DNA of 64,000 nt from the NCBI GenBank assembly GCA_025455885.1, contig JALOLR010000003.1, positions 124,001 to 188,000 of the forward strand, read 5' to 3'. Positions within the stretch are counted from its first letter, which is position 1. Each line of letters opens with the position of its first letter. The position numbers were made by a program, and so were the translations under genes. The notes beneath the pieces were generated by a model. The model did no database searches. It had not been told where the DNA came from and saw only the letters and a program-made list of their open reading frames with translations. Shown in pieces: positions 16,038 to 64,000 of this stretch. Source of the stretch: Acidimicrobiales bacterium. GTDB taxonomy: Bacteria; Actinomycetota; Acidimicrobiia; Acidimicrobiales; Acidimicrobilacustridaceae.

Positions 16038-17666
16038 GTGCAGGGGCTCATGCAGGACCGACCGTTGGTGCTGACCCACTTCCTCGAGCGCGCCGAGCGG
16101 CTCTTCGGCGACAAGGAGGTGGTGACCGCCACCGCCGACGGCACCGACCGCGTGACCTACCGCGAGTGGGGCGGGCGCACCCGGCGCCTGGCCGGGGTGC
16201 TCGACGACCTCGGCATCAGCGCCGACGGCCGGGTGGGGACCTTCGGGTGGAACACGGCCCGCCACCTCGAGCTCTACTTCGCCGCCCCGTGCAGCGGACG
16301 GGTGCTGCACACCCTCAACATCCGGCTGTTCCCCGAGCAGCTCACCTACGTCGTGAACCACGCCGAGGACGAGGTGATCTTCGCCGACCGGTCCCTCCTG
16401 GGCCTGCTCTGGCCGATCGTCGACACCTTCGCCACGGTCCGTCACATCGTGGTGATGGACGACGGGCGAGGCGAGCTGCCCGCCGACACCAAGGGGGTGA
16501 CCGTCCACGACTACGAGACCCTGCTCGCCGCCGCGACCCCCGCCGAGCTCCGCGTCGACGACGAGGACCAGGCGGCGTCGATGTGCTACACGTCCGGCAC
16601 CACAGGCCATCCGAAGGGGGTGGTCTACAGCCATCGCTCCACCTGGCTGCACACCGCCGGGGTGATGATGGCCGACAGCCTCGGCGCCTGCGAGCGCGAC
16701 GTCATCCTCCCCGTCGTGCCGATGTTCCACGCCAACGCCTGGGGTCTCGCCCACGCCGGCGTGGCCGCCGGCGCCACCCTCGTGATGCCCGGGCCCGACC
16801 TGTCGCCCCCGGCGCTCGTGTCGCTCATCGAGCGCGAGCGGGTGACCGTCGCCGCCGGGGTGCCGACCATCTGGATGGGGGTGCTCGGGGCGCTCGACGG
16901 CCACGACGTGTCGAGCCTGCGCGCCGTCCCGTGCGGAGGATCGGCGGTGCCCCGGTCGCTGTCCGAGGCCTACCGGGAGAAGATCGGTCTGCCCATCCTC
17001 CAGGCGTGGGGGATGACCGAGACCAGCCCGGTGGCGTCGATCTGCCGCGTCAAGTCCACTCTCGACCATCTCGACGAGGACGCCAAGGCCGACCTCCGGT
17101 CGACCATCGGGCTCGTCGCCCCGGGTGTCGACTTCCGGGTCGCCGACCAGACGACCGGCGCCGAGCTCCCCTGGGACGGGGTGAGCCGGGGCGAGCTCCA
17201 GGTGGCGGGGCCGTGGATCGCCCGGGAGTACTACGACGACGACCGCTCGCCGCAGTCCTTCACCGACGACGGGTGGCTTCGGACCGGCGACGTCGTCACG
17301 TGCGACGCCGAGGGGTACCTCCGCATCGTCGACCGCACGAAGGACGTCGTGAAGTCCGGCGGCGAGTGGATCTCCTCGGTCGAGCTCGAGAACGAGATCA
17401 TGGGCCACCCCGCCGTGGCCGAGGCGGCCGTCATCGGTGTGAAGCACCCAAAGTGGAGCGAGCGGCCGCTGGCCTGCGTCGTGGTGGCCCCGGGCGCGAC
17501 GCTCACCCGGGAGGAGCTGCTCGAGTACCTCGACGGGAGAGTGGCGTCGTGGTGGTTGCCCGACGACGTCGTCTTCATCGACGAGGTGCCGAAGACCTCG
17601 GTCGGCAAGTTCTCCAAGCGCGACCTCCGCGACCGCTTCGCCGACCACGAGCTGCCCACCGTCTGA
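16038..17666 (+). CDS. Fatty-acyl-CoA synthetase / AMP-dependent ligase
   Basis: 542 aa. It belongs to the ANL superfamily and activates a carboxylic acid as acyl-AMP and then acyl-CoA. The P-loop motif YTSGTTGHPKGVVYSH is near residue 180. The A5 motif is GMTETSPV, the A7 motif DGWLRTGDV, the A8 hinge IVDRTKDVVKSGGEWIS, and the A10 lysine lies in KTSVGKFSKRDLR. The GGEWISS hinge is typical of medium/long-chain acyl-CoA ligases. GTG 16038 was chosen for its AAGGGGG Shine-Dalgarno sequence; ATG 16050 is the alternative. It is divergent from the DedA-like gene. Confidence 0.92.
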   Translation: MQGLMQDRPLVLTHFLERAERLFGDKEVVTATADGTDRVTYREWGGRTRRLAGVLDDLGISADGRVGTFGWNTARHLELYFAAPCSGRVLHTLNIRLFPEQLTYVVNHAEDEVIFADRSLLGLLWPIVDTFATVRHIVVMDDGRGELPADTKGVTVHDYETLLAAATPAELRVDDEDQAASMCYTSGTTGHPKGVVYSHRSTWLHTAGVMMADSLGACERDVILPVVPMFHANAWGLAHAGVAAGATLVMPGPDLSPPALVSLIERERVTVAAGVPTIWMGVLGALDGHDVSSLRAVPCGGSAVPRSLSEAYREKIGLPILQAWGMTETSPVASICRVKSTLDHLDEDAKADLRSTIGLVAPGVDFRVADQTTGAELPWDGVSRGELQVAGPWIAREYYDDDRSPQSFTDDGWLRTGDVVTCDAEGYLRIVDRTKDVVKSGGEWISSVELENEIMGHPAVAEAAVIGVKHPKWSERPLACVVVAPGATLTREELLEYLDGRVASWWLPDDVVFIDEVPKTSVGKFSKRDLRDRFADHELPTV

Positions 17667-17720
17667 ACGGCCGCGGTCGCCGGTCGCCGTGTCGGTTCGT
17701 GAGCCGGTGGGGCCCGGTCC

Positions 17721-50188: not shown

Positions 50189-50277
50189 TTGACAAGGGCG
50201 TAATTACTCTGGTGTAATCCTCCGACATCTTGTGGCTCCCGGCCTGTGGGGGGCATGAACACCACAAGATCTTGTGT
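50189..50277 (+). promoter_or_regulatory. nrdJ promoter with two NrdR-like boxes
   Basis: -35 TTGACA (50189-50194) and TGTAAT (50213-50218) are 18 bp apart. Box 1 CTCCGACATCTTGTGG (50220-50235) lies at the predicted start. Box 2 CCACAAGATCTTGTGT (50262-50277) is nearly palindromic. Their CTTGTG cores are exactly 42 bp apart, four helical turns, fitting cooperative NrdR binding. The leader continues about 190 nt to nrdJ without a recognisable cobalamin riboswitch. Confidence 0.7.
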
Positions 50278-50469
50278 TGTACCCGATACGACCACGGCGG
50301 GGGTGAAGGGCTCCATCCAGGCGCCACGGCCCCTCGGACGACCAACGGGGGCGGATCTCACCACCTCGAGCCCACCGCACCCCACGATTCCCCGAAGTCC
50401 CCGACACCGCCTCTCACCACCTCACACCCGACGCAGCACCCGACACCCACCACGCCCCGAAGGAGCACG

Positions 50470-53271
50470 ATGGCCATCGCACCCGAGCAGGCCGGCATCG
50501 GCATTCGCCGCCGTTTCACCGTCGAGGGGACCCACCCCTACGACATGGTCGAGTGGGAGCGCCGCGACGCCCGCATCTCGAACTGGAAGACCGGCGAGAT
50601 CGCCTTCGAGCAGCTCGGGGTCGAGTTCCCCGCCGGGTGGTCCCTCAACGCCACCAACATCGTCGCCCAGAAGTACTTCCGCGGCACGCTCGGCACGCCC
50701 GAGCGGGAGTGGTCGCTCAAGCAGGTGGCCGACCGGGTCGTCGACACGATCACGGCCTGGGGGCTGAAGGACGGCTACTTCGTCGACGACGCCGAGGCCG
50801 AGGCGTTCTCCGACGAGCTCAAGTACCTCATCATCACCCAGCGGGCGGCGTTCAACTCGCCGGTGTGGTTCAACATCGGTGTCAAGGGCGTGCCCCAGCA
50901 GGCCTCGGCCTGCTTCATCCTCTCCGTCGACGACACGATGGACTCGATCCTCAACTGGTACGTCGAGGAGGGAACCATCTTCAAGGGCGGCTCCGGGGCG
51001 GGCATCAACCTGAGCCGCATCCGCTCGTCCAAGGAGCTCCTCAAGGGGGGCGGCACCGCGTCGGGCCCGGTGAGCTTCATGCGCGGCGCCGACGCCTCGG
51101 CGGGCACCATCAAGTCGGGTGGCAAGACCCGTCGGGCCGCCAAGATGGTCATCCTCGACGTCGACCACCCCGACATCGAGGAGTTCATCTGGTGCAAGTC
51201 ACGTGAGGAGCGCAAGGCCCGCGCCCTCGAGGCCGCCGGGTTCGACATGACCCTCGACGGCGCCGACATCACCTCGATCCAGTACCAGAACGCCAACAAC
51301 TCGGTCCGGGTCACCGACGACTTCATGCAGGCCGTCGTCGACGACGCCGACTGGCATCTCCGCGGCGTCATCGACGGCGAGATCATCAAGACCGTCAAGG
51401 CCCGCGACCTCATGCGCCAGATCTCCCAGGCCGCCTGGGAGTGCGCGGACCCCGGCATGCAGTTCGACTCCACCATCAACCGTTGGCACACCGCGGCCAA
51501 CACCGGTCGGATCAACGGCTCGAACCCGTGCTCGGAGTACATGCACCTCGACAACTCGGCCTGCAACCTCGCCAGCATGAACCTGCTCACGTTCCTCGAC
51601 GACGACGGGACCTTCGACGTGGACGGCTTCAAGGCCGCCGTCGAGTGCGTGTTCACCGCCCAGGAGATCCTGGTGGGCAACGCCGACTACCCGACCGAGG
51701 CCATCGGGGAGACCTCGCACCGCTTCCGCCAGCTCGGGATCGGCTACGCCAACATCGGCGCCATGCTCATGGCACTCGGTCTGCCCTACGACTCCGACGA
51801 GGGCCGCTCGCTGGCCGCGGCCGTCACGTCGCTCATGACCGGTCACGCCTACGCCACCTCCGCTCGCACCGCGGCCCGCATGGGCCCCTTCGCCGGCTAC
51901 ACCGAGAACGCCGAGCACATGCTCCGCGTCCTCGACCAGCACCGCAGTGCCGCCGCCGAGATCGACGAGGAGCTGGTGCCCCACGATCTGCTCTCGGCCG
52001 CCCAGCAGGCGTGGGACGACGCGTGCGAGCTCGCCGGAGAGGTCGGGGTGCGCAACTCCCAGGCCTCCGTGCTCGCCCCGACCGGCACCATCGGGCTGAT
52101 GATGGATTGCGACACCACCGGTGTGGAGCCAGACCTCGGCCTGGTCAAGATGAAGAAGCTGGTCGGCGGCGGCACGATGTCGATCGTCAACCAGACCGTT
52201 CCCCGGGCCCTCCGCCGCCTCGGCTACACCCCCGATCAGGTCGCCGAGATCGTGGCCTACATCGACGAGAACATGTCGATCATCGGTGCGCCCCACGTGG
52301 CCGCCGAGCACCTCCCGGTGTTCGCGTGCTCGATGGGCGACAACACCATCCACTACTCGGGCCACGTCCGGATGATGGGCGCCGTGCAGCCCTTCATCTC
52401 CGGGGCCATCTCCAAGACGGTGAACCTCCCCGAGGAGGCGACCCTGGAAGAGGTGGAGCAGCTCCACATCGACGCCTGGCGCCTCGGCATCAAGGCGGTG
52501 GCCATCTACCGTGACAACTGCAAGGTCGCCCAGCCGCTGTCGCCGTCGCAGAAGGACGACGACCGAGCCGACGCCGGCACGGTCGAGGCGGCCACGGAGG
52601 TCGTCGAGCGGATCGTCGAGAAGATCGTCTACGAGCCGATCCGCCAGAAGCTGCCCCGCACCCGCACCTCGAAGACCTTTGAGTTCCGGGTCGCGGACTG
52701 CAAGGGCTTCGTGACCGTCGGCGAGTACGAGGACGGCCGGCCGGGCGAGATCTTCGTGCGGGTCTCCAAGCAGGGCTCCACCCTCGCCGGCATCATGGAC
52801 GCCTTCGCCATCTCGGTCAGCCACGGCCTGCAGTACGGGGTGCCGCTGCGCAGCTTCGTCGACGCCTTCACCGGCATGCGCTTCGAGCCGGCCGGCATGA
52901 CCGACGACCCCGACATCCGCATCGCCAACTCGTTGATGGACTACCTGTTCCGTCGCCTCGCTCTCGAGTACCTCTCGGTGGAGGAGCGGGCCGAGCTCAA
53001 CATCCTGAGCACCGCCGAGCGGATGCAGCCCACCCTGCCGGGCGTCGAGGAGACCATCGTCGAGACCCGCCAGGGGTCCGAGCTCCCGGCCGACCCGCCG
53101 TCGATCGAGTCGGTGTCGACCCTCATCGCCGAGACCCAGACCCGGGTCGTGCGCGAGACCCACACGGTGAGCCACGACGCCCCGCTGTGCATGCAGTGCG
53201 GCGTCGTGATGCAGCGCTCCGGCAGCTGCCACGCCTGCCCCAGCTGCGGGACCACCAGCGGCTGCAGCTGA
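50470..53271 (+). CDS. nrdJ: Class II (adenosylcobalamin-dependent) ribonucleotide reductase NrdJ
   Basis: 933 aa from ATG 50470, with AAGGAG upstream. It reduces ribonucleotides to deoxyribonucleotides using an adenosylcobalamin radical. The N-terminal region includes AAFNSPVWFNIG. The active-site loops are GSGAGINLSRIRSS, NPCSEYMHLDNSACNLAS (radical Cys and Glu) and APTGTIGLMMDCDTTGVEPD. A C-terminal extension from about residue 690 ends in zinc/thiol cysteines CMQCG and CPSCGTTSGC. It is oxygen-independent. NrdR control is expected from the upstream boxes and the nearby nrdR gene. Confidence 0.96.
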   Translation: MAIAPEQAGIGIRRRFTVEGTHPYDMVEWERRDARISNWKTGEIAFEQLGVEFPAGWSLNATNIVAQKYFRGTLGTPEREWSLKQVADRVVDTITAWGLKDGYFVDDAEAEAFSDELKYLIITQRAAFNSPVWFNIGVKGVPQQASACFILSVDDTMDSILNWYVEEGTIFKGGSGAGINLSRIRSSKELLKGGGTASGPVSFMRGADASAGTIKSGGKTRRAAKMVILDVDHPDIEEFIWCKSREERKARALEAAGFDMTLDGADITSIQYQNANNSVRVTDDFMQAVVDDADWHLRGVIDGEIIKTVKARDLMRQISQAAWECADPGMQFDSTINRWHTAANTGRINGSNPCSEYMHLDNSACNLASMNLLTFLDDDGTFDVDGFKAAVECVFTAQEILVGNADYPTEAIGETSHRFRQLGIGYANIGAMLMALGLPYDSDEGRSLAAAVTSLMTGHAYATSARTAARMGPFAGYTENAEHMLRVLDQHRSAAAEIDEELVPHDLLSAAQQAWDDACELAGEVGVRNSQASVLAPTGTIGLMMDCDTTGVEPDLGLVKMKKLVGGGTMSIVNQTVPRALRRLGYTPDQVAEIVAYIDENMSIIGAPHVAAEHLPVFACSMGDNTIHYSGHVRMMGAVQPFISGAISKTVNLPEEATLEEVEQLHIDAWRLGIKAVAIYRDNCKVAQPLSPSQKDDDRADAGTVEAATEVVERIVEKIVYEPIRQKLPRTRTSKTFEFRVADCKGFVTVGEYEDGRPGEIFVRVSKQGSTLAGIMDAFAISVSHGLQYGVPLRSFVDAFTGMRFEPAGMTDDPDIRIANSLMDYLFRRLALEYLSVEERAELNILSTAERMQPTLPGVEETIVETRQGSELPADPPSIESVSTLIAETQTRVVRETHTVSHDAPLCMQCGVVMQRSGSCHACPSCGTTSGCS

Positions 53272-53389: not shown

Positions 53390-54283
53390 TCAGGCGCGCT
53401 CGCCGGCCGGCCAGGCGAGCGGGCACACGTCGGTCAGCTCGTCGCCGTCGTGCAGCGACCCGTGATGGCCCTTGGTGGGCGCGCCGGGCGTCACGGCGAA
53501 CCGGGCGTCGTCGCCGGCGTAGCGGACGCTGATGGCCCGGCGGCGGCGGGTGGCGCTGGCGTTGGCGTAGGCGCCGTGGATCGTCCGGGCGTGGTGCACG
53601 GTCACGTCACCGGGTTCGGTGTCGAAGCTCACGATCCGTGCCCCGCCGGACACCAGGTGGGCCTCGTCGGGGACCTCGACCCCGGCGGTGCCGGGGATCG
53701 ACGTCGTGGTGACGAAGAGGTTCGGCCGGTAGGGCGTCCGGTCGAGGTGGGAGCCCACCACGAAGCGCACCGCACCGCTCTCGGCGGTCACGGGGTCGAG
53801 CGGGACCCACGTGGTGCACACCTGATCTCCGGTGAGGTGGAAGTACGCCATGTCCTGGTGGAAGGCGGTCGCCTCCCGGGTCCCGGGCTCCTTGACCAGG
53901 AGGCTGTCCTCGTACAGGTGCACCTTCTCGGTGCGCAACAGCCGGGCGACGATCGGACCCAACGGCGAGCGGAGGGCGAAGTCGGCGAAGGCCGGCAGCT
54001 CGAGCCAGTGGTCGGTGCCGGCCCGGAACCGTCCCCGGACCGGGGTGCGCACCGCCTCGTCCACGGTGCCGTCACGGTCCCCGGCCTCGGCCAGGGCCTC
54101 ACCCATCCCGGTCAGGTCGGCGGTCGAGGATCCGCCGAGGGCGTCCTCGACCGGATCGGCCATCGCCTCCAGCCATTCCTCGGGCATGACCCCGCGAAGG
54201 CACACCACGCCGTCGCGCCAGAAGGCGTCGACCTCGGCGTCGGTGACGGGTCGCAGCGGCGCGTCGGGGAGCGGGGTCGGCAT
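53390..54283 (-). CDS. Phytanoyl-CoA dioxygenase (PhyH)-family Fe(II)/2OG oxygenase
   Basis: 297 aa. The Fe(II)-binding His-x-Asp is in AFHQDMAYF and the distal His in VHHARTIHGAY. The 2-oxoglutarate-binding Arg is in RRRRAISVRY. The N-terminal VTDAEVDAFWRDGVVCLRGV is typical of PhyH proteins. The substrate is unknown; members include phytanoyl-CoA hydroxylases and enzymes of secondary metabolism. No clear Shine-Dalgarno sequence. It is transcribed in the same direction as the potassium channel gene, 29 bp downstream of it. Confidence 0.88.
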   Translation of the reverse strand: MPTPLPDAPLRPVTDAEVDAFWRDGVVCLRGVMPEEWLEAMADPVEDALGGSSTADLTGMGEALAEAGDRDGTVDEAVRTPVRGRFRAGTDHWLELPAFADFALRSPLGPIVARLLRTEKVHLYEDSLLVKEPGTREATAFHQDMAYFHLTGDQVCTTWVPLDPVTAESGAVRFVVGSHLDRTPYRPNLFVTTTSIPGTAGVEVPDEAHLVSGGARIVSFDTEPGDVTVHHARTIHGAYANASATRRRRAISVRYAGDDARFAVTPGAPTKGHHGSLHDGDELTDVCPLAWPAGERA

Positions 54284-58761: not shown

Positions 58762-59733
58762 ATGCAGCTCTGGTCCGACGAGATCGACGCCATGCGCGCC
58801 GAGTCCCGCCAGGTGGTCGCCGCCGGTATGGAGGTGGTCGCCGCCTCGCTCGCCGGTGCCGGGGAGCCACCGGCGGGGCTCCACGAACGAGCCCTGTTCG
58901 CTCGCGAGTCCTTCGCCCGCACGTTCCCCGCTCCCGACGCCGGGGGCGTCGATCGCGAGATCGCCGGCGTCCCCTGCCGGGTGTTCGTCCCCGAGGGCCC
59001 CGCCGCCGCGGTGTACCTGCACTTCCACGGCGGCGCCATGTACCTGGGCGCGCCGATCATGAACGACGCCGGCAACGCCGCGCTGTGCCGCGACCACTCG
59101 CTGGCGGTGGTGTCGGTCGACTACCGCCTGGCACCCGAGCACCCCTACCCGGCCGGTCCCGACGACGGCCTCGCCGTCGCCGCGTGGTTGATCGAGCACG
59201 CCGCCGAGGAGTTCGGGACCGCCCGCCTGCTGATGGGCGGGGAGTCCGCGGGGGGCTACATGGCCGCCGCCGTGTTGTTGCGGGTGCGCGACGAGTTGGG
59301 CGCCGCCGACCGGGTCGACGGGGTGAACCTCGTGTATGGGGTGTTCGACTGGTCCCACTCGCCCAGCCAGCGCGGGATGCGGGCCAGCGACGGGCCCGAC
59401 ATGCTCAGCCCGGACGCCAACGACACGATGGTGCGCTGCTACCTGCCGGGCACCACGCTCGACGAGCGTCGCGGCCCGGCCATCTCGCCGGTGGCGGCCG
59501 ACCTGCACGGCCTGCCGCCCGCGTTCTTCTCGGTGGGCACCGCCGACCACCTCCTCGACGACACCCTCTTCATGGCCACGCGCTGGGTGGCGGCGGGCAG
59601 CGAGGCCGAGCTCTTCGTCGCTCCCGACATGCCCCACGGGTTCCAGGCGTTCCCGTGTGCGATGACCACGGCATGGCAACAGGCCCTCGACGACTGGATC
59701 CGAGGGATCCTCGCTCGTCCGCCGCGAGCCTGA
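58762..59733 (+). CDS. HSL-family alpha/beta hydrolase (esterase)
   Basis: 323 aa with a strong GAGGGGGAG Shine-Dalgarno sequence. The oxyanion-hole motif is LHFHGGAMYLG and the nucleophile elbow is GGESAGGYMAA, both typical of hormone-sensitive-lipase-like esterases. The acid is in VGTADHLLDD and His in MPHGFQAFP. An amide or ester substrate cannot be told. It lies upstream of the CoA-transferase operon and may supply its acid substrate. Confidence 0.9.
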   Translation: MQLWSDEIDAMRAESRQVVAAGMEVVAASLAGAGEPPAGLHERALFARESFARTFPAPDAGGVDREIAGVPCRVFVPEGPAAAVYLHFHGGAMYLGAPIMNDAGNAALCRDHSLAVVSVDYRLAPEHPYPAGPDDGLAVAAWLIEHAAEEFGTARLLMGGESAGGYMAAAVLLRVRDELGAADRVDGVNLVYGVFDWSHSPSQRGMRASDGPDMLSPDANDTMVRCYLPGTTLDERRGPAISPVAADLHGLPPAFFSVGTADHLLDDTLFMATRWVAAGSEAELFVAPDMPHGFQAFPCAMTTAWQQALDDWIRGILARPPRA

Positions 59734-59828
59734 CGGCCTCGTTCCGAGCCCCAGGCCCGCGACGTCGGCGTAGCCGGGTCGCGCGAGGCTCTCCGACCGG
59801 GGCCAGGGGGTCCCGGGAGAGGAGCACG

Positions 59829-61052
59829 GTGTCGGGTCCACTCGAAGGCGTGAAGGTCGTGGAGCTGGGGATGTGGGTCGCCGGGCCGGCCTGCGCCGGC
59901 ATCCTGGCCGACTGGGGTGCGGACGTGGTGAAGCTCGAGCCGCCCGTCGGTGGCGACCCGGCCCGCACCTACCAGCGGCTCTTCGGCGAGGAGATGCCCG
60001 ACAACCCCGTCTTCGAGATGGACAACCGGGCCAAGCGCAGCGTCGCCGTCGACCTGCGCACACAAGAGGGGCGCGACGTGGCCCTCGAGCTGCTCGACAC
60101 CGCCGACGTGTTCGTGACGAACCTGCGGACCTCGGCACTCGAGCGCTTCGGCCTCGATCCGACAGCCGTCCTGGCCCGGTGTCCCCGTCTCGTGTACCAG
60201 CTCATCACCGGCTACGGGATGGACGGCGCCGACGCCGGCCGACCGGCCTACGACATCGGGGGGTTCTGGGCCCGGTCCGGCGTGGCCGACCTGCTGCGCA
60301 CCCCCGACGGTCCGCTGCCGTTCCAGCGGGGCGGGATGGGTGACCACCCCACCGGCAGCTCGGCGGCAGGTGCGGTGTGCGCCGCGCTCTTCGCCCGCGA
60401 GCGCACCGGGGAGGGCCAGCTGGTGTCCACCTCGTTGGTCCGCCAGGGCGCCTACACCGTGGGCTTCGACCTCTCCATCACCCTCGGCTGGGGCGCTCAC
60501 ATCGGCATCGGTCGCCGCGAGACGATGGGCAACCCGGCCATGAACAACTACACCGCCGGGGACGGCCGGGCGTTCTGGCTCATCGGCCAGGAGGCCGAGC
60601 GCCACTGGCCTCCGCTGGCCCGCGTCGTCGGCCATCCCGAGTGGCTCTCCGACGAGCGCTTCTCGACCGCCGTGGGGCGCCGCCAGAACGCCGCGGAGCT
60701 CATCGGTCTGCTCGACGAGGTCTTCGCCACCCGGACCCTCGACGAGTGGGCCGAGGCCTTCGACACCGAGCCGGACATGTTCTGGGCGCCGGTGAACACC
60801 ATCGACGACGTGCTCGTCGACCCCCAGATGCACGCCGCCGGCACGTTCGTGGAGGTCCCCGAGCGCGACGGTGGGGCGCTCCGGGTGGCCAGCCCGTCGG
60901 ACTTCTACGGCACCCCGTGGGCTCCCCGCGGGCCCGCCCCGCTCCTCGGCGAGCACACCCGCGAGGTGCTCGCCGAGCTCGGGCGCGATCCCGCCTCGGT
61001 CGACGCGTTGGCGGCGGCCGGCGTCGTGTCCCTGGCCGAGGTCGACCGGTGA
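59829..61052 (+). CDS. CaiB/BaiF family III CoA-transferase
   Basis: 407 aa from GTG 59829, with GAGAGGAG upstream. The N-terminus GVKVVELGMWVAGPACAGILADWGADVVKLEPP is the family signature. The glycine loop is RGGMGDHPTGSSAAGAV. The catalytic Asp is probably in the DNRAKRSVAVDL or downstream segment. These enzymes move CoA between acids without acyl-phosphate intermediates. The gene overlaps the next hydrolase (GTGA). Confidence 0.9.
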   Translation: MSGPLEGVKVVELGMWVAGPACAGILADWGADVVKLEPPVGGDPARTYQRLFGEEMPDNPVFEMDNRAKRSVAVDLRTQEGRDVALELLDTADVFVTNLRTSALERFGLDPTAVLARCPRLVYQLITGYGMDGADAGRPAYDIGGFWARSGVADLLRTPDGPLPFQRGGMGDHPTGSSAAGAVCAALFARERTGEGQLVSTSLVRQGAYTVGFDLSITLGWGAHIGIGRRETMGNPAMNNYTAGDGRAFWLIGQEAERHWPPLARVVGHPEWLSDERFSTAVGRRQNAAELIGLLDEVFATRTLDEWAEAFDTEPDMFWAPVNTIDDVLVDPQMHAAGTFVEVPERDGGALRVASPSDFYGTPWAPRGPAPLLGEHTREVLAELGRDPASVDALAAAGVVSLAEVDR

Positions 61053-62056
61053 CCGTCACCGGCTACGACCCCCGCCTGCGCCCGGCGCAGCCCGCCACGC
61101 CGCCCGCCGACGCCTTCGACGTCCACCGTGCCGAGGTGGCCGACGGCCTCGAGCTGGCCTACGTGCGCGAGGGCGTGGGCGGGTACCCCTTGCTGCTCGT
61201 GCACGGCTACCCCGAGACCAAGCGGATCTGGTGGCGCAACATCGAACCGCTGGCGGCGGCCGGGTTCGAGGTGATCGTCCCCGATCTGCGGGGCCACGGC
61301 GACTCGGACCTCTCCGTCGACGACACCTACGACATCGTCACCTACTCGCGTGATCTGCGGACGCTCGTCCACGACGTGCTCGGCCACGACGCCTACGGCA
61401 TCGCCGCCGGCGACGTCGGCGGGGTGGTCGCCGTCGACATGGCGCTGCGCTTCGACGGCGACGTGGACGGTCTGTGCTTCTTCGACACCGTCCCGCCGAT
61501 GCTGATCGACGAGTTCGTGGCCGCCGGGATCGACATCGGGTCGATCACCGCCATCGGCGACGGGCCCACCGGCGACTACCGGCGCCGACAGGGCCAGGCC
61601 CCCGACGAGCTGGCCGCCGAGCTGTCCTCGCCCGAGGCCCGGCGCAGCTGGGTGGCGGCCATGTACGGGCCGCGGCTGTGGGCCTCGCCGGGGACCTTCT
61701 CCGACGACGACATCGCCTTCCACACCGAGCCGTGGGCCGAGGAAGCCCGCCTGCGAGCCGGGTGGGCCGTCTACCAGCTCGGCCACGGCCGGGGGATGGC
61801 CGAGGCGCCCCTCCTCGGCCAGGCCGTCGACATCCCGACGCTGCTGCTCTACGGCGCGGACGACCACGTCGTCGGCGCGGACTTCCTCCACTGCTGCGAG
61901 GTGGCGTTCACCGACCGGGTCGGTCCCCTCGTCCTGCCCGGCGCCGGCCACTTCCTGCAGTGGGAGCGGGCCGACCTGTTCAACCCGACGGTGACCATGT
62001 TCTTCGCGGGCCTGGCCGCCCGGGCCGGACGTCCCTGGCCGGGGGCGGGCCGGTGA
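61049..62056 (+). CDS. Alpha/beta hydrolase (epoxide hydrolase/dehalogenase-like)
   Basis: 335 aa from GTG 61049, overlapping the CoA-transferase stop. The oxyanion motif is VHGYPETKRIWW. The nucleophile elbow AGDVGGVVA has Asp in place of Ser, the pattern of epoxide hydrolases and haloacid dehalogenases, although the usual G-H-D-x-G-G reads G-D-V-G-G. The base His is in GAGHFLQWE. Substrate not identifiable. It is coupled to both neighbours by GTGA overlaps. Confidence 0.85.
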   Translation: MTVTGYDPRLRPAQPATPPADAFDVHRAEVADGLELAYVREGVGGYPLLLVHGYPETKRIWWRNIEPLAAAGFEVIVPDLRGHGDSDLSVDDTYDIVTYSRDLRTLVHDVLGHDAYGIAAGDVGGVVAVDMALRFDGDVDGLCFFDTVPPMLIDEFVAAGIDIGSITAIGDGPTGDYRRRQGQAPDELAAELSSPEARRSWVAAMYGPRLWASPGTFSDDDIAFHTEPWAEEARLRAGWAVYQLGHGRGMAEAPLLGQAVDIPTLLLYGADDHVVGADFLHCCEVAFTDRVGPLVLPGAGHFLQWERADLFNPTVTMFFAGLAARAGRPWPGAGR

Positions 62057-63543
62057 CCCTCGATCCGTCGACCCCCGTGGTGGTCGCCGCGGCGGCGGTG
62101 ACCCGACACCCCGGCGACGGCTTCGAGGCCTCGTCGGCCACGGCGCTGATGCTCGACGCCACCCGGGCCGCTCTGGCCGGCACGGGCGCGGCCCGTGAGT
62201 TGGGGGCGGCGATCGGCGAGGTACTGGTCCCTCACGGCACCTGGCCCGAGTCCGACCCTGGGCGGGCGGTGGCCGCGGCGGTCGGGGCGCCGCAGGCGCG
62301 GTCGGTGATGGGGGAGCTGGGGGTGTTGCAGCACTCGCTGATGGCTCGCGCCGCCCGTGCGGTGGCCGAGGGCTCGGTGCAGGCGGCCCTGGTGACGGGT
62401 GGCGAGAACCGCTGGTCGGGCGTGGTGGCCGCGAAGTCGGCGACGCCGGTACCGGAGCCTCCGCCGCTCGCCCTGGCGACGGACCCCGACGACGTGCTGC
62501 GCCCGACCGACATGGTCGTCAACGCCGTCGAGGTCGAACGCGACCTCACCACCGCCGCCCACCAGTACGCGATCATCGAGAGCTGTCTGCGCCACCACGC
62601 CGACCACGGGGCGGACGAGCACCAGGCGTTCCTCGGTCGGCTGTGGGAGCGCTTCGCGGCGATCGCCGCCGCCACCCCCTCGGCCTGGGACCGTCGCGGG
62701 TTGTCCGCCGCGGAGATCACCGAGGTGTCCGACACCAATCGGCTGATCGCCGCGCCCTACCCGAAGTGGATGGTCTCGCAGTGGAACGTCGACCAGGCGG
62801 CGGCGCTGGTGTTCACCACCGTCGCCGTCGCCGAGCGCCTCGGCGTACCACGGGAGCAGTGGGTCTTCCCCCTGGCGATGGTCGAGTCCAACCTGGTCGT
62901 CCCGCTCTCCGAGCGCGCCGAGCCGCACCGGTGGCCGGCCATGGGCATCTGCGGCGAACGGGCCCTCGGGCTCGCCGGCCGGTCCCTCGCCGACGTCGGG
63001 CCGGTCGACCTCTACTCGTGCTTCCCGGCCGCCGTGCAGGTCACCGCCGCCGAGCTCGGCCTCGACCTCGATCGCGACCTCACCCTCACCGGCGGCATGA
63101 CCTTCGGCGGCGGTCCCTACGACAACTACGTGCTCCAGGGGGCCGTGGCCATGGTCGAGCGCCTCCGCTCCGATCCCGTCGGCACCGTCGGCCTCACCAC
63201 GGCCGTGAGCGGGCTGTTGACCAAGCCCGGAGTGACGGTCTGGTCCTCCGCGGACCCCGTCACCCCGTTCGTGGCCCACGACGTGTCCGAGGCGGCGGCC
63301 GAGGTGTCGCCGAGACGCCCGGTCGACCCCGACGCCACGGGCCCGGCCACCGTGGTGGGCTACACCGTCGTGCCCGGCCGGCCGGACGGTCTCACCGCCA
63401 TCGCCGTCGTCGAGACCGACGACGGCCGGCGCAGCGTCGCCCGGTGCGCCGATCAGGCCGTCGCCACGCTCCTGCTGCGCGGCGACCACGTCGGCCACGC
63501 GGTGCGCCTCGTGGCCCCGGGGGAGTTCGTCCCCGGGCGTTGA
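62053..63543 (+). CDS. Thiolase-like protein (atypical acetyl-CoA acetyltransferase)
   Basis: 496 aa from GTG 62053, overlapping the previous stop. The overall thiolase fold is seen: VTGGENRWS near residue 115, AAALVFTTVAVAERLG, then DLYSCFPAAVQVTAAELGLD and TGGMTFGGGPYDNYVLQGAVAMVE. The catalytic Cys of the N-terminal half is not found in its usual C-x-S-G context, and the G-H-P motif reads GGGPYDNY. It is thus a non-canonical member, like those annotated near CaiB and amidohydrolase genes in actinobacteria. It closes the operon. Confidence 0.8.
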   Translation: MTLDPSTPVVVAAAAVTRHPGDGFEASSATALMLDATRAALAGTGAARELGAAIGEVLVPHGTWPESDPGRAVAAAVGAPQARSVMGELGVLQHSLMARAARAVAEGSVQAALVTGGENRWSGVVAAKSATPVPEPPPLALATDPDDVLRPTDMVVNAVEVERDLTTAAHQYAIIESCLRHHADHGADEHQAFLGRLWERFAAIAAATPSAWDRRGLSAAEITEVSDTNRLIAAPYPKWMVSQWNVDQAAALVFTTVAVAERLGVPREQWVFPLAMVESNLVVPLSERAEPHRWPAMGICGERALGLAGRSLADVGPVDLYSCFPAAVQVTAAELGLDLDRDLTLTGGMTFGGGPYDNYVLQGAVAMVERLRSDPVGTVGLTTAVSGLLTKPGVTVWSSADPVTPFVAHDVSEAAAEVSPRRPVDPDATGPATVVGYTVVPGRPDGLTAIAVVETDDGRRSVARCADQAVATLLLRGDHVGHAVRLVAPGEFVPGR

Positions 63544-63622
63544 CGCCCCCTCGTCGGCGACCTTCGCCGGGGGAGGGGCTTTCCGGGCGCCGACGTCGCC
63601 TCGGCCGGCGAGGGGTGCCAAA

Positions 63623-63637
63623 CTGACGGTCCGTCAG
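63623..63637. promoter_or_regulatory. Perfect palindromic operator before the amidohydrolase gene
   Basis: CTGACGGTCCGTCAG is a 7+1+7 perfect inverted repeat, ending 36 bp before ATG 63674. Its symmetry is typical of TetR-family sites. No regulator gene is in the window next to it. Confidence 0.65.
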
Positions 63638-63673
63638 ATCCCGGGGCCGCCGGGTGTGGACACGGAGGACGAC

Positions 63674-64000
63674 ATGGACATCCCTCGGATCATCTCGGTC
63701 GACGACCACGTCGTGGAGCCCCCGAACCTCTGGCAGGACCGTTTACCGGCGAAGTACCTTGACCGGGCCCCCCGGGTGGTGCGCGAGAAGGTGCGCATGA
63801 GCCTCGTCGGCGGCTACTCCTTCGAGACCGGCGTCGAGGACGGCGTCGAGTGCGACGTCTGGTACTACGACGACCTCAAGTACCCGTTCACCCGACTGTC
63901 GGCCGCCGTGGGCGCCGAGGTCGTGAAGAACGAGCCCACCACCTTCGACCAGATCCGCCTCGGTTGCTACGACCAGACCGCGCGGCTCGCCGACATGGAC
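63674..64000 (+). CDS. Amidohydrolase family 2 protein, N-terminal part (runs off the window)
   Basis: The frame from ATG 63674 (GGAGG upstream) is open to the window end: 109 residues starting MDIPRIISVDDHVVEPPNLW. The SVDDHVVEPP motif is the D-x-H metal site of the TIM-barrel amidohydrolase-2 family, which includes decarboxylases and hydrolases of aromatic or cyclic acids. The remaining metal ligands lie beyond the edge. A palindromic operator is just upstream. Confidence 0.85.
   Translation, partial: MDIPRIISVDDHVVEPPNLWQDRLPAKYLDRAPRVVREKVRMSLVGGYSFETGVEDGVECDVWYYDDLKYPFTRLSAAVGAEVVKNEPTTFDQIRLGCYDQTARLADMD

Follow-up and report, generated by a model that had tools for sequence, protein, structure and literature searches.

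The gene block and its conservation

The window analysed here is a 64,000-nucleotide stretch from the genome of an Acidimicrobiales bacterium (G000:C3:124001-188000), a member of the mostly uncultured class Acidimicrobiia. The assembly holds 3.29 Mb in 33 contigs, and its sequence was also used past the end of the window. From position 58762 onward, the window carries five genes on the + strand, with a palindrome before the last of them and GTGA stop/start overlaps at 61049 (CoA-transferase/hydrolase) and 62053 (hydrolase/thiolase-like). This arrangement had been given in a preliminary description of the sequence and was confirmed from the open reading frames (ORFs). The present study concerns this cluster, the two unusual proteins encoded at its end, and the distribution of the palindrome in the genome.

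The first gene (58762..59733) encodes a hormone-sensitive-lipase-type esterase with a GESAG motif (Abhydrolase_3, 162.6 bits; best PDB matches 8q03 ORF30 and 5jd5), in which Ser162, Asp262, and His292 are invariant in six sequences. The product of the second gene (59829..61052), judged by its whole-length CoA_transf_3 domain (342.4 bits) and its active-site Asp, is a family III (CaiB/BaiF) CoA-transferase. Asp172 aligns in the GD motif of 3ubm, a position that we take to be the catalytic Asp of the family, and is invariant in seven sequences. The third gene (61049..62056) encodes an epoxide-hydrolase-like alpha/beta-hydrolase with an Asp nucleophile (Abhydrolase_1, 86.1 bits; best PDB matches 7ac0 and 9c2g). 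Its Asp122, in GDVGG, and His301 are invariant in seven sequences, and the two candidates for the lid Tyr, at 206 and 242, vary in the seven-sequence alignment. The fourth gene (62053..63543) encodes a TLP1-type thiolase-like protein that matches 4egv over its full length (E 1.8e-46). The fifth belongs to PF04909 (Amidohydro_2, 105 bits for the whole gene); its first part lies in the window (63674..64000), and extending the sequence past 64000 placed its stop at 64882. It could begin at GTG 63656 or ATG 63674, the latter being more likely because the start MDIPRIIS is common to relatives. The operator-like palindrome AACTGACGGTCCGTCAGAT (63621..63639), which contains CTGACGGTCCGTCAG at 63623-63637, lies 34 bp before this ATG.

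The coupling of these genes is a conserved property. All six relatives compared have an ATGA or GTGA where the CoA-transferase gene ends, and in all six the thiolase-like gene, by its aligned start, begins no more than 21 bp from the end of the hydrolase gene. The esterase and CoA-transferase genes are 0.13 kb apart in a Microthrixaceae metagenome-assembled genome (L012); in four more relatives, the gap measures 0.85-3.5 kb. Since the overlaps are kept and the esterase distance varies, the CoA-transferase, hydrolase, and thiolase-like genes form, on gene spacing, a tight unit (hereafter the trio), with the esterase gene as a looser neighbour.

Among 198 genomes of the order, matches to the thiolase-like protein were found in 142 and to the hydrolase in 26 (E limit 1e-40), and to the CoA-transferase in 78 and the PF04909 protein in 83 (E limit 1e-80). 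The contiguous set of CoA-transferase, hydrolase, thiolase-like, and PF04909 genes is present in five of the six sampled genomes of the family (G000, G127, G053, G155, and G180), was not found in the sixth (G095), and occurs also in L012; gene order is kept at 58-94% protein identity. The preliminary description had proposed a coherent catabolic cluster acting on CoA thioesters, and this co-occurrence within the family bears it out. A small Acidimicrobiales contig (L011) carries a partial esterase gene, the CoA-transferase and hydrolase genes, and a partial thiolase-like gene. By the listed coordinates, the 21 other genomes with a hydrolase match have no above-threshold CoA-transferase match near it. 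Where the fetched stretch reaches that far, the block of the relatives L044 and L046 runs on through genes for a short-chain dehydrogenase/reductase (SDR), a luciferase-like monooxygenase (LLM), FadD, two acyl-CoA dehydrogenases, and two further PF04909 proteins. In the window's genome, this continuation is interspersed with an enoyl-CoA hydratase gene, an acetoacetate-decarboxylase-like gene, and some additional genes. The LLM gene scores above the cut-off of TIGR03559 F420_Rv3520c (446 vs 335).

The cluster occupies a common chromosomal place in the window's genome and L012, since upstream of it both have a gene recognised by eye as ribonucleotide-reductase-like (window 50230-53271 and L012 2-2023). 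A PhyH-type (phytanoyl-CoA dioxygenase) gene (97.7 bits; window 53390-54283, - strand) is found a few kb upstream, outside the conserved block. On the other side, glycine-rich and double-cupin proteins are encoded at 65805-66791 and 67770-68957 on the window scale (L009), amid PF04909, SDR, and LLM genes, which are directly adjacent to one another in L012.

The PF04909 and thiolase-like proteins

The closest solved structures of the PF04909 protein are DitZ (8uyr, E 8.2e-57), presumably a diterpenoid-pathway enzyme from its name, and PtmU3 (6omp, 1.9e-36). They are followed by 4dzi, the SfbO group, and AibH2, and decarboxylases come lower (3.6e-9 downward). In AibH2 and LynB7, the metal ligands are described as Asp, His, His, Glu, Asp, and His plus an acidic residue two positions further (PMC7782822, PMC10127204), and PtmU3 is described as holding two irons and hydroxylating C-5 of diterpenoid-CoA intermediates (PMC10127204). 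The name amidohydrolase-related dinuclear oxygenases (AROs) has been given to this class (PMC10811679; PMC10401708); their redox partners are described as including a Rieske ferredoxin in the AibG type, and PtmU3 is described without an AibH1-like partner. All seven metal-site residues are present in the window protein (D10, H12, H229, E281, D351, H354, and D356, numbered from the ATG). Judging from these residues and from the likeness to DitZ and PtmU3, the protein is probably an oxygen-using dinuclear-metal hydroxylase and not the amidohydrolase of the preliminary description.

Such genes are numerous in the window's genome, where we counted 26 PF04909 places in 3.3 Mb. The six ligands are found in 19 of 19 well-aligned distinct proteins and the acidic seventh in 17, the seventh position being Thr in L108 and L112; this count leaves out L110, L111, L118, L120, L124, L126, and L129, in which the match was weak or partial or the neighbouring ORF was taken (L111, L118). 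By their ligand set, these 19 proteins would also be oxygenases. The genome G176 has 52 PF04909 matches in 3.6 Mb, one of them below the cut-off, and PF04909 genes are strongly expanded in both G000 and G176.

The thiolase-like protein is as atypical as had been suspected. It has YSCF (Tyr321-Phe324; 63013..63024) in place of NEAF and no nucleophilic Cys. These two features rule out an ordinary thiolase and make thiolysis of a beta-keto thioester unlikely; the preliminary description had foreseen the processing of a beta-keto or related thioester. Its score with the Pfam model TLP1_add_C is just below the cut-off (23.6 vs 26.1 bits), and NCBIfam PRK08257-type models reach at most 299 against a cut-off of 757. 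All 42 homologues have Gly90, Tyr321, Cys323, and Phe324. The TLP1 family has had a structure since 2012, without a function. Its member MsTLP1 (4egv), with the fingerprint YSCF, is described as a monomer that lacks the nucleophilic Cys, binds CoA only weakly, was inactive as a thiolase, and has been assigned no function (PMC3406046).

A profile of the 42 homologues matches 4egv, then the archaeal thiolases 7yvy (5e-21) and 6esq (2e-15), then 4u4e (2e-14) and the aldolase Ltp2 (6ok1, 1.2e-7); in its alignment, YSCF falls on the YDHF of Ltp2. In the YDCY motif of CtSal, Tyr302 is described as the catalytic base and Cys304 as the acid, and the motif Tyr of Ltp2 likewise as the base (PMC12329534). 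We read 9myr as CtSal because YDCY stands at 326-329 of its chain, offset by 24 from the published numbering. By analogy with these enzymes, the thiolase-like protein may be a Sal-like retro-aldolase, cutting a C-C bond.

The C-terminal part of the protein is consistent with this proposal. An AlphaFold model of the protein, built from three sequences, had a mean pLDDT of 38 and was usable over about 420-496, where the last 71 residues (426-496; 63328..63540) form an OB fold that aligns with 4egv (VIA Z 8.6 over 79 residues). The next matches were folds of the single-stranded DNA-binding (SSB) type (Z 6-7, at most 16% identity). The domain also aligned with ChsH2(DUF35) of the Ltp2 complex (6ok1_D; Z 6.3, 27% identity over 64) and with the DUF35 chain of 6esq (Z 6.2, 23% identity). 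With hhalign, the profile comparison to DUF35 sequences (11 rows, two of them the same domain) gave a score of 30.0 (probability 57%, E 1.1e-4); 150 column shuffles reached 17.0 at most. On these comparisons, we describe the domain as DUF35-like.

The palindromic operator and its sites

A search of the 3.29-Mb genome finds the palindrome TGACGGNCCGTCA at a single place and the control at none. In the window alone, one site of this type was found with one mismatch allowed against 0.57 expected, so the weight of the palindrome lies in its conservation and not in its rarity there: its footprint precedes the PF04909 gene in six of six cluster copies. The operator of the preliminary description stands as a conserved operator-like site; its reach is narrower than the cluster, since it lies between the trio and the PF04909 gene and bears on the latter alone.

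With up to three mismatches, the relaxed pattern AACTGACGNNNCGTCAGAT gave 19+14 strand matches in the genome, compared to 1+0 for the pattern read backwards. These 33 strand matches correspond to 12 places matched on both strands (24) and nine on one strand; the 12 were inspected, and the nine one-strand places, all with three mismatches, were left out. At 11 of the 12, the operator ATCTGACGnnnCGTCAGAT lies 2-87 bp before start codons. The C9:88171 site, which has three mismatches and lies near an apparent ribosomal protein gene, was taken as chance.

The window's PF04909 gene is one target among several. Two sites lie where a second PF04909 oxygenase-type gene and an acyl-CoA dehydrogenase gene diverge, and two others where a thiolase-DUF35 gene diverges from a FadD-SDR-TetR run. 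Single sites precede an LLM gene, an aldehyde dehydrogenase gene, an HMG-CoA-synthase-like gene followed by a thiolase gene, and a CoA-transferase gene divergent from ferredoxin and reductase genes. Further sites precede two operons, one coding for an SDR, an acyl-CoA dehydrogenase, and a second SDR that scores above the PRK07831 cut-off (440 vs 336), the other for an echA20-like enoyl-CoA hydratase (above the PRK07938 cut-off, 423 vs 260) followed by ipdA, ipdB, and ipdC. The ipdA product scores 354 bits to 6co6, which we take to be IpdA; the ipdC-type gene codes for a FabK-type flavoprotein, and ipdB was assigned by eye and from its position. The labels echA20, fadE30, and ipdF for operator-linked genes are likewise our assumption. 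EchA20, IpdAB, IpdC, and IpdF are described as working on the last two steroid rings (PMC5380842). No known pathway had been recognised in the preliminary description; the same operator precedes ipdABC-type genes of steroid-ring degradation.

Sites at corresponding positions were found in relatives. In the congener G127, they lie before the HMG-CoA-synthase-like gene, between the thiolase-DUF35 and FadD genes, and, twice, between the acyl-CoA dehydrogenase and oxygenase-type genes; G155 has one site, at the last of these loci. None was found in the fetched stretches of G053, G180, and G176, which have either oxygenase-type genes that are only 44-46% alike or rearranged genes. In 260 kb of loci from the window's own genome, picked partly for holding sites, there were 11 sites with up to two mismatches against none for a control palindrome. 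The 62 loci from relatives held 13 sites with up to three mismatches, or 2.5 per 12 loci. Among 26 palindromes made by shuffling its letters, the count ranged over 0-4 per 12 loci with a mean of about 1, and 3 of the 26 reached the observed number, so we dropped the rarity of the motif as evidence in itself and rely on the positions of the sites.

Two side observations concern the operator. The FadD-SDR-TetR run behind two sites ends in a TetR-family gene (17034-17693 of locus L146; G000 C4:29033-29692), which is conserved in G127 at 83% and is a candidate for the regulator. Another locus, L107 (G004:C182:10100-28100), holds five PF04909 oxygenase-type genes in 18 kb, one of which, 59% identical, lies behind a perfect ATCTGACGnnnCGTCAGAT.

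Proposed route, rival explanations, and known systems

The reading that we tentatively prefer, and that could somewhat more easily fail than hold, is that the stretch opens a conserved Acidimicrobiia cluster that breaks down a bulky acid of the steroid-like (polycyclic isoprenoid) kind, and that the operator connects this cluster with a dispersed regulon containing steroid C/D-ring genes. In the route that we infer, the esterase would free the acid, which the family III CoA-transferase and/or FadD would convert to its CoA thioester. The PF04909 dinuclear-metal oxygenase would hydroxylate this thioester, the analogy with PtmU3 suggesting the beta carbon as the site. Acting on the same route, the TLP1-type protein would then cleave the beta-hydroxyacyl-CoA in a retro-aldol reaction to a ketone or aldehyde and a short acyl-CoA, with Tyr321 as base and Cys323 as acid, and its fused OB domain would replace the separate DUF35 partner of Sal and Ltp2. 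The acyl-CoA dehydrogenases, hydratase, SDR, and LLM could provide the remaining oxidation steps, and the Asp-hydrolase might open an epoxide or a group like it. The oxygenase gene would be controlled by a repressor on ATCTGACGnnnCGTCAGAT, probably one of the TetR type.

Several observations weigh against this reading. The operator is not found before the trio, and it precedes the PF04909 orthologue in 2 of 20 loci of other families (L106 and L107) and not in the other 18. Inspection of the cluster gene lists by eye revealed no Rieske reductase partner; ferredoxin and reductase genes sit behind another copy of the operator. The evidence from steroid genes covers rings C/D, through the ipdA/B/C and echA20-type genes. 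The TLP1 profile scores the archaeal thiolases 7yvy and 6esq above the aldolase Ltp2, and CtSal (9myr) is absent among its 15 matches at E 0.01. The Z scores of the OB domain with DUF35 are level with those of unrelated SSB proteins, and the zinc ribbon is missing from it (no CxxC pairs). Because the motif and OB domain are alike but the zinc ribbon is missing, our proposal is limited to a Sal-like reaction, and the protein is not classed as a member of the Sal/Ltp2 family. PF04909 genes are present in 10 of 41 TLP1 neighbourhoods, five of which are the cluster itself, and the remaining 5 of 36 are about what chance would give for a density of 26 genes per 3.29 Mb. The 20 loci (6-18 kb) that hold PF04909 orthologues outside the family showed neither a TLP1 gene nor one of thiolase type. 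A general genomic pairing of DUF35 and PF04909 genes was rejected as evidence: DUF35 genes lie within 5 kb of a PF04909 gene in 12 of 59 cases over seven genomes (3.75 expected by coverage) and at 2.5 kb in 5 (2.0 expected), which is not specific and no stronger than the CoA-transferase control (8 of 59 vs 2.4, and 3 vs 1.25).

Two loci of the window's genome speak in favour of an association between oxygenases and thiolase-type proteins. In L142 (G000:C8:47000-66000) and L143 (G000:C7:128000-147999), PF04909 genes with the full ligand set stand beside thiolase-type genes (YDGF and YDPF) and DUF35 genes; neither locus has an operator site at up to three mismatches. Plasmid searches gave no close copy, with best identities of 53, 31, 55, and 41% for four proteins among the matches listed, and loosely similar gene sets were seen on plasmids of R. 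qingshengii and Rhodococcus BH4. On the Mycobacterium branderi plasmid pJCM12687 (L086, 649460-678632), a PF04909 gene (46% identical), an SDR gene, a thiolase gene (YDSF), and a zinc-ribbon OB-fold gene lie in one run, the PF04909 gene two genes from the thiolase-DUF35 pair; the YDSF thiolase matches 4u4e, 9myr, and 6ok1.

PF04909 includes hydrolases and decarboxylases too (PMC10811679), and the cluster could be a generic one for branched-chain or xenobiotic acyl-CoAs, with the PF04909 protein as a metal hydrolase or decarboxylase. The thiolase-like protein would then be a non-catalytic CoA binder, as the monomeric, weakly binding MsTLP1 with no thiolase activity might suggest, or an unknown acyl-transfer enzyme. 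The regulator would be a broad acyl-CoA sensor with incidental ipd targets, a view that the varied kinds of regulon members (aldehyde dehydrogenase, LLM, and CoA-transferase) would suit. We consider this explanation doubtful, if a real contender, as the PF04909 protein has every residue of the dinuclear site and matches DitZ and PtmU3 far above the decarboxylases, and as Tyr321 and Cys323, needless for a mere binder, do not vary in any of the 42 homologues.

The same enzymes might instead serve a terpenoid route, for example to resin-acid-like diterpenoids, with the ipd genes as a shared lower pathway. A terpenoid-like substrate, as envisaged in the preliminary description, is plausible, and both nearest structures come from diterpenoid pathways (DitZ by its name). 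A terpenoid rather than a steroid route is nevertheless improbable, given that ipdA-type genes are under the operator and that the known role of IpdAB and EchA20 is in steroid rings. Finally, orthologues are scattered outside the family, as at four far-apart places in the one-contig genome G176, which would fit unrelated neighbours assembled by chance. Such an origin is scarcely credible: within the family, the conserved order, the coupling in all six relatives, and the operator footprint in all six copies refute it.

A wider proposal, which we put forward as speculative and on balance unlikely, is that TLP1 proteins are single-chain retro-aldolases (a thiolase fold with a fused DUF35-like OB domain and Sal-like Tyr/Cys) acting after PF04909 dinuclear oxygenases; the two together would offer an oxygenase-aldolase shortcut where a tertiary beta carbon blocks an acyl chain. 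The Acidimicrobiia members would have as neighbour an undescribed operator regulon with about eleven promoters, steroid C/D-ring genes included, and their genomes would carry an enlarged set of 'amidohydrolase' oxygenases (19 candidates in one of 3.3 Mb). The parts are known families; in a search limited to open-licence papers, we did not find the combination, the operator, or the TLP1 proposal described. If this is true, the orphan TLP1 family, and with it many actinobacterial proteins annotated 'amidohydrolase 2', would gain a function that can be tested, and the operator would allow members of steroid-like catabolic regulons to be predicted in other Acidimicrobiia.

Compared to known systems, the PF04909 protein is most similar to the dinuclear oxygenases PtmU3, DitZ, and AibH2, with which it shares the complete metal site and which include its best solved relatives; it differs in the setting of its gene, an acyl-CoA catabolic cluster where no neighbouring Rieske partner was recognised. 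The thiolase-like protein shares with MsTLP1 the whole-length match, YSCF, the missing nucleophile, and a C-terminal beta barrel, whereas it is in the class of about 30% identity, belongs to a GVLQ-type clade, and is part of a defined cluster. With the steroid side-chain aldolases Sal and Ltp2 it has in common the thiolase fold (by family), the motif Tyr, the lack of a thiolase nucleophile, and an OB domain, and its motif Cys is as in Sal. However, these aldolases have a separate zinc-ribbon DUF35 partner, whereas the OB domain here is fused and has no zinc ribbon, and the sequence is nearer to archaeal thiolases than to Sal. The Asp-hydrolase shares the Asp nucleophile, the His, and an HGYPE-type loop with the epoxide hydrolases 7ac0 and 9c2g, but it is in a low score class (75 and 70 bits) and the lid Tyr varies among its relatives. 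Finally, the regulon resembles that of KstR2 in steroid-degrading actinobacteria, which governs 3aα-H-4α(3'-propanoate)-7aβ-methylhexahydro-1,5-indanedione (HIP) catabolism (echA20, ipdA, ipdB, ipdC, and ipdF), in being dispersed behind a palindromic operator and in covering echA20-like-ipdA-ipdB-ipdC and acyl-CoA dehydrogenase-SDR operons. Its operator ATCTGACGnnnCGTCAGAT is different from those described for KstR2, AnCAAGnnCTTGnT, and KstR, TnnAACnnGTTnnA (PMC1995591, PMC3068626), and, unlike the KstR2 regulon, it takes in PF04909 oxygenase-type and thiolase-DUF35 genes.

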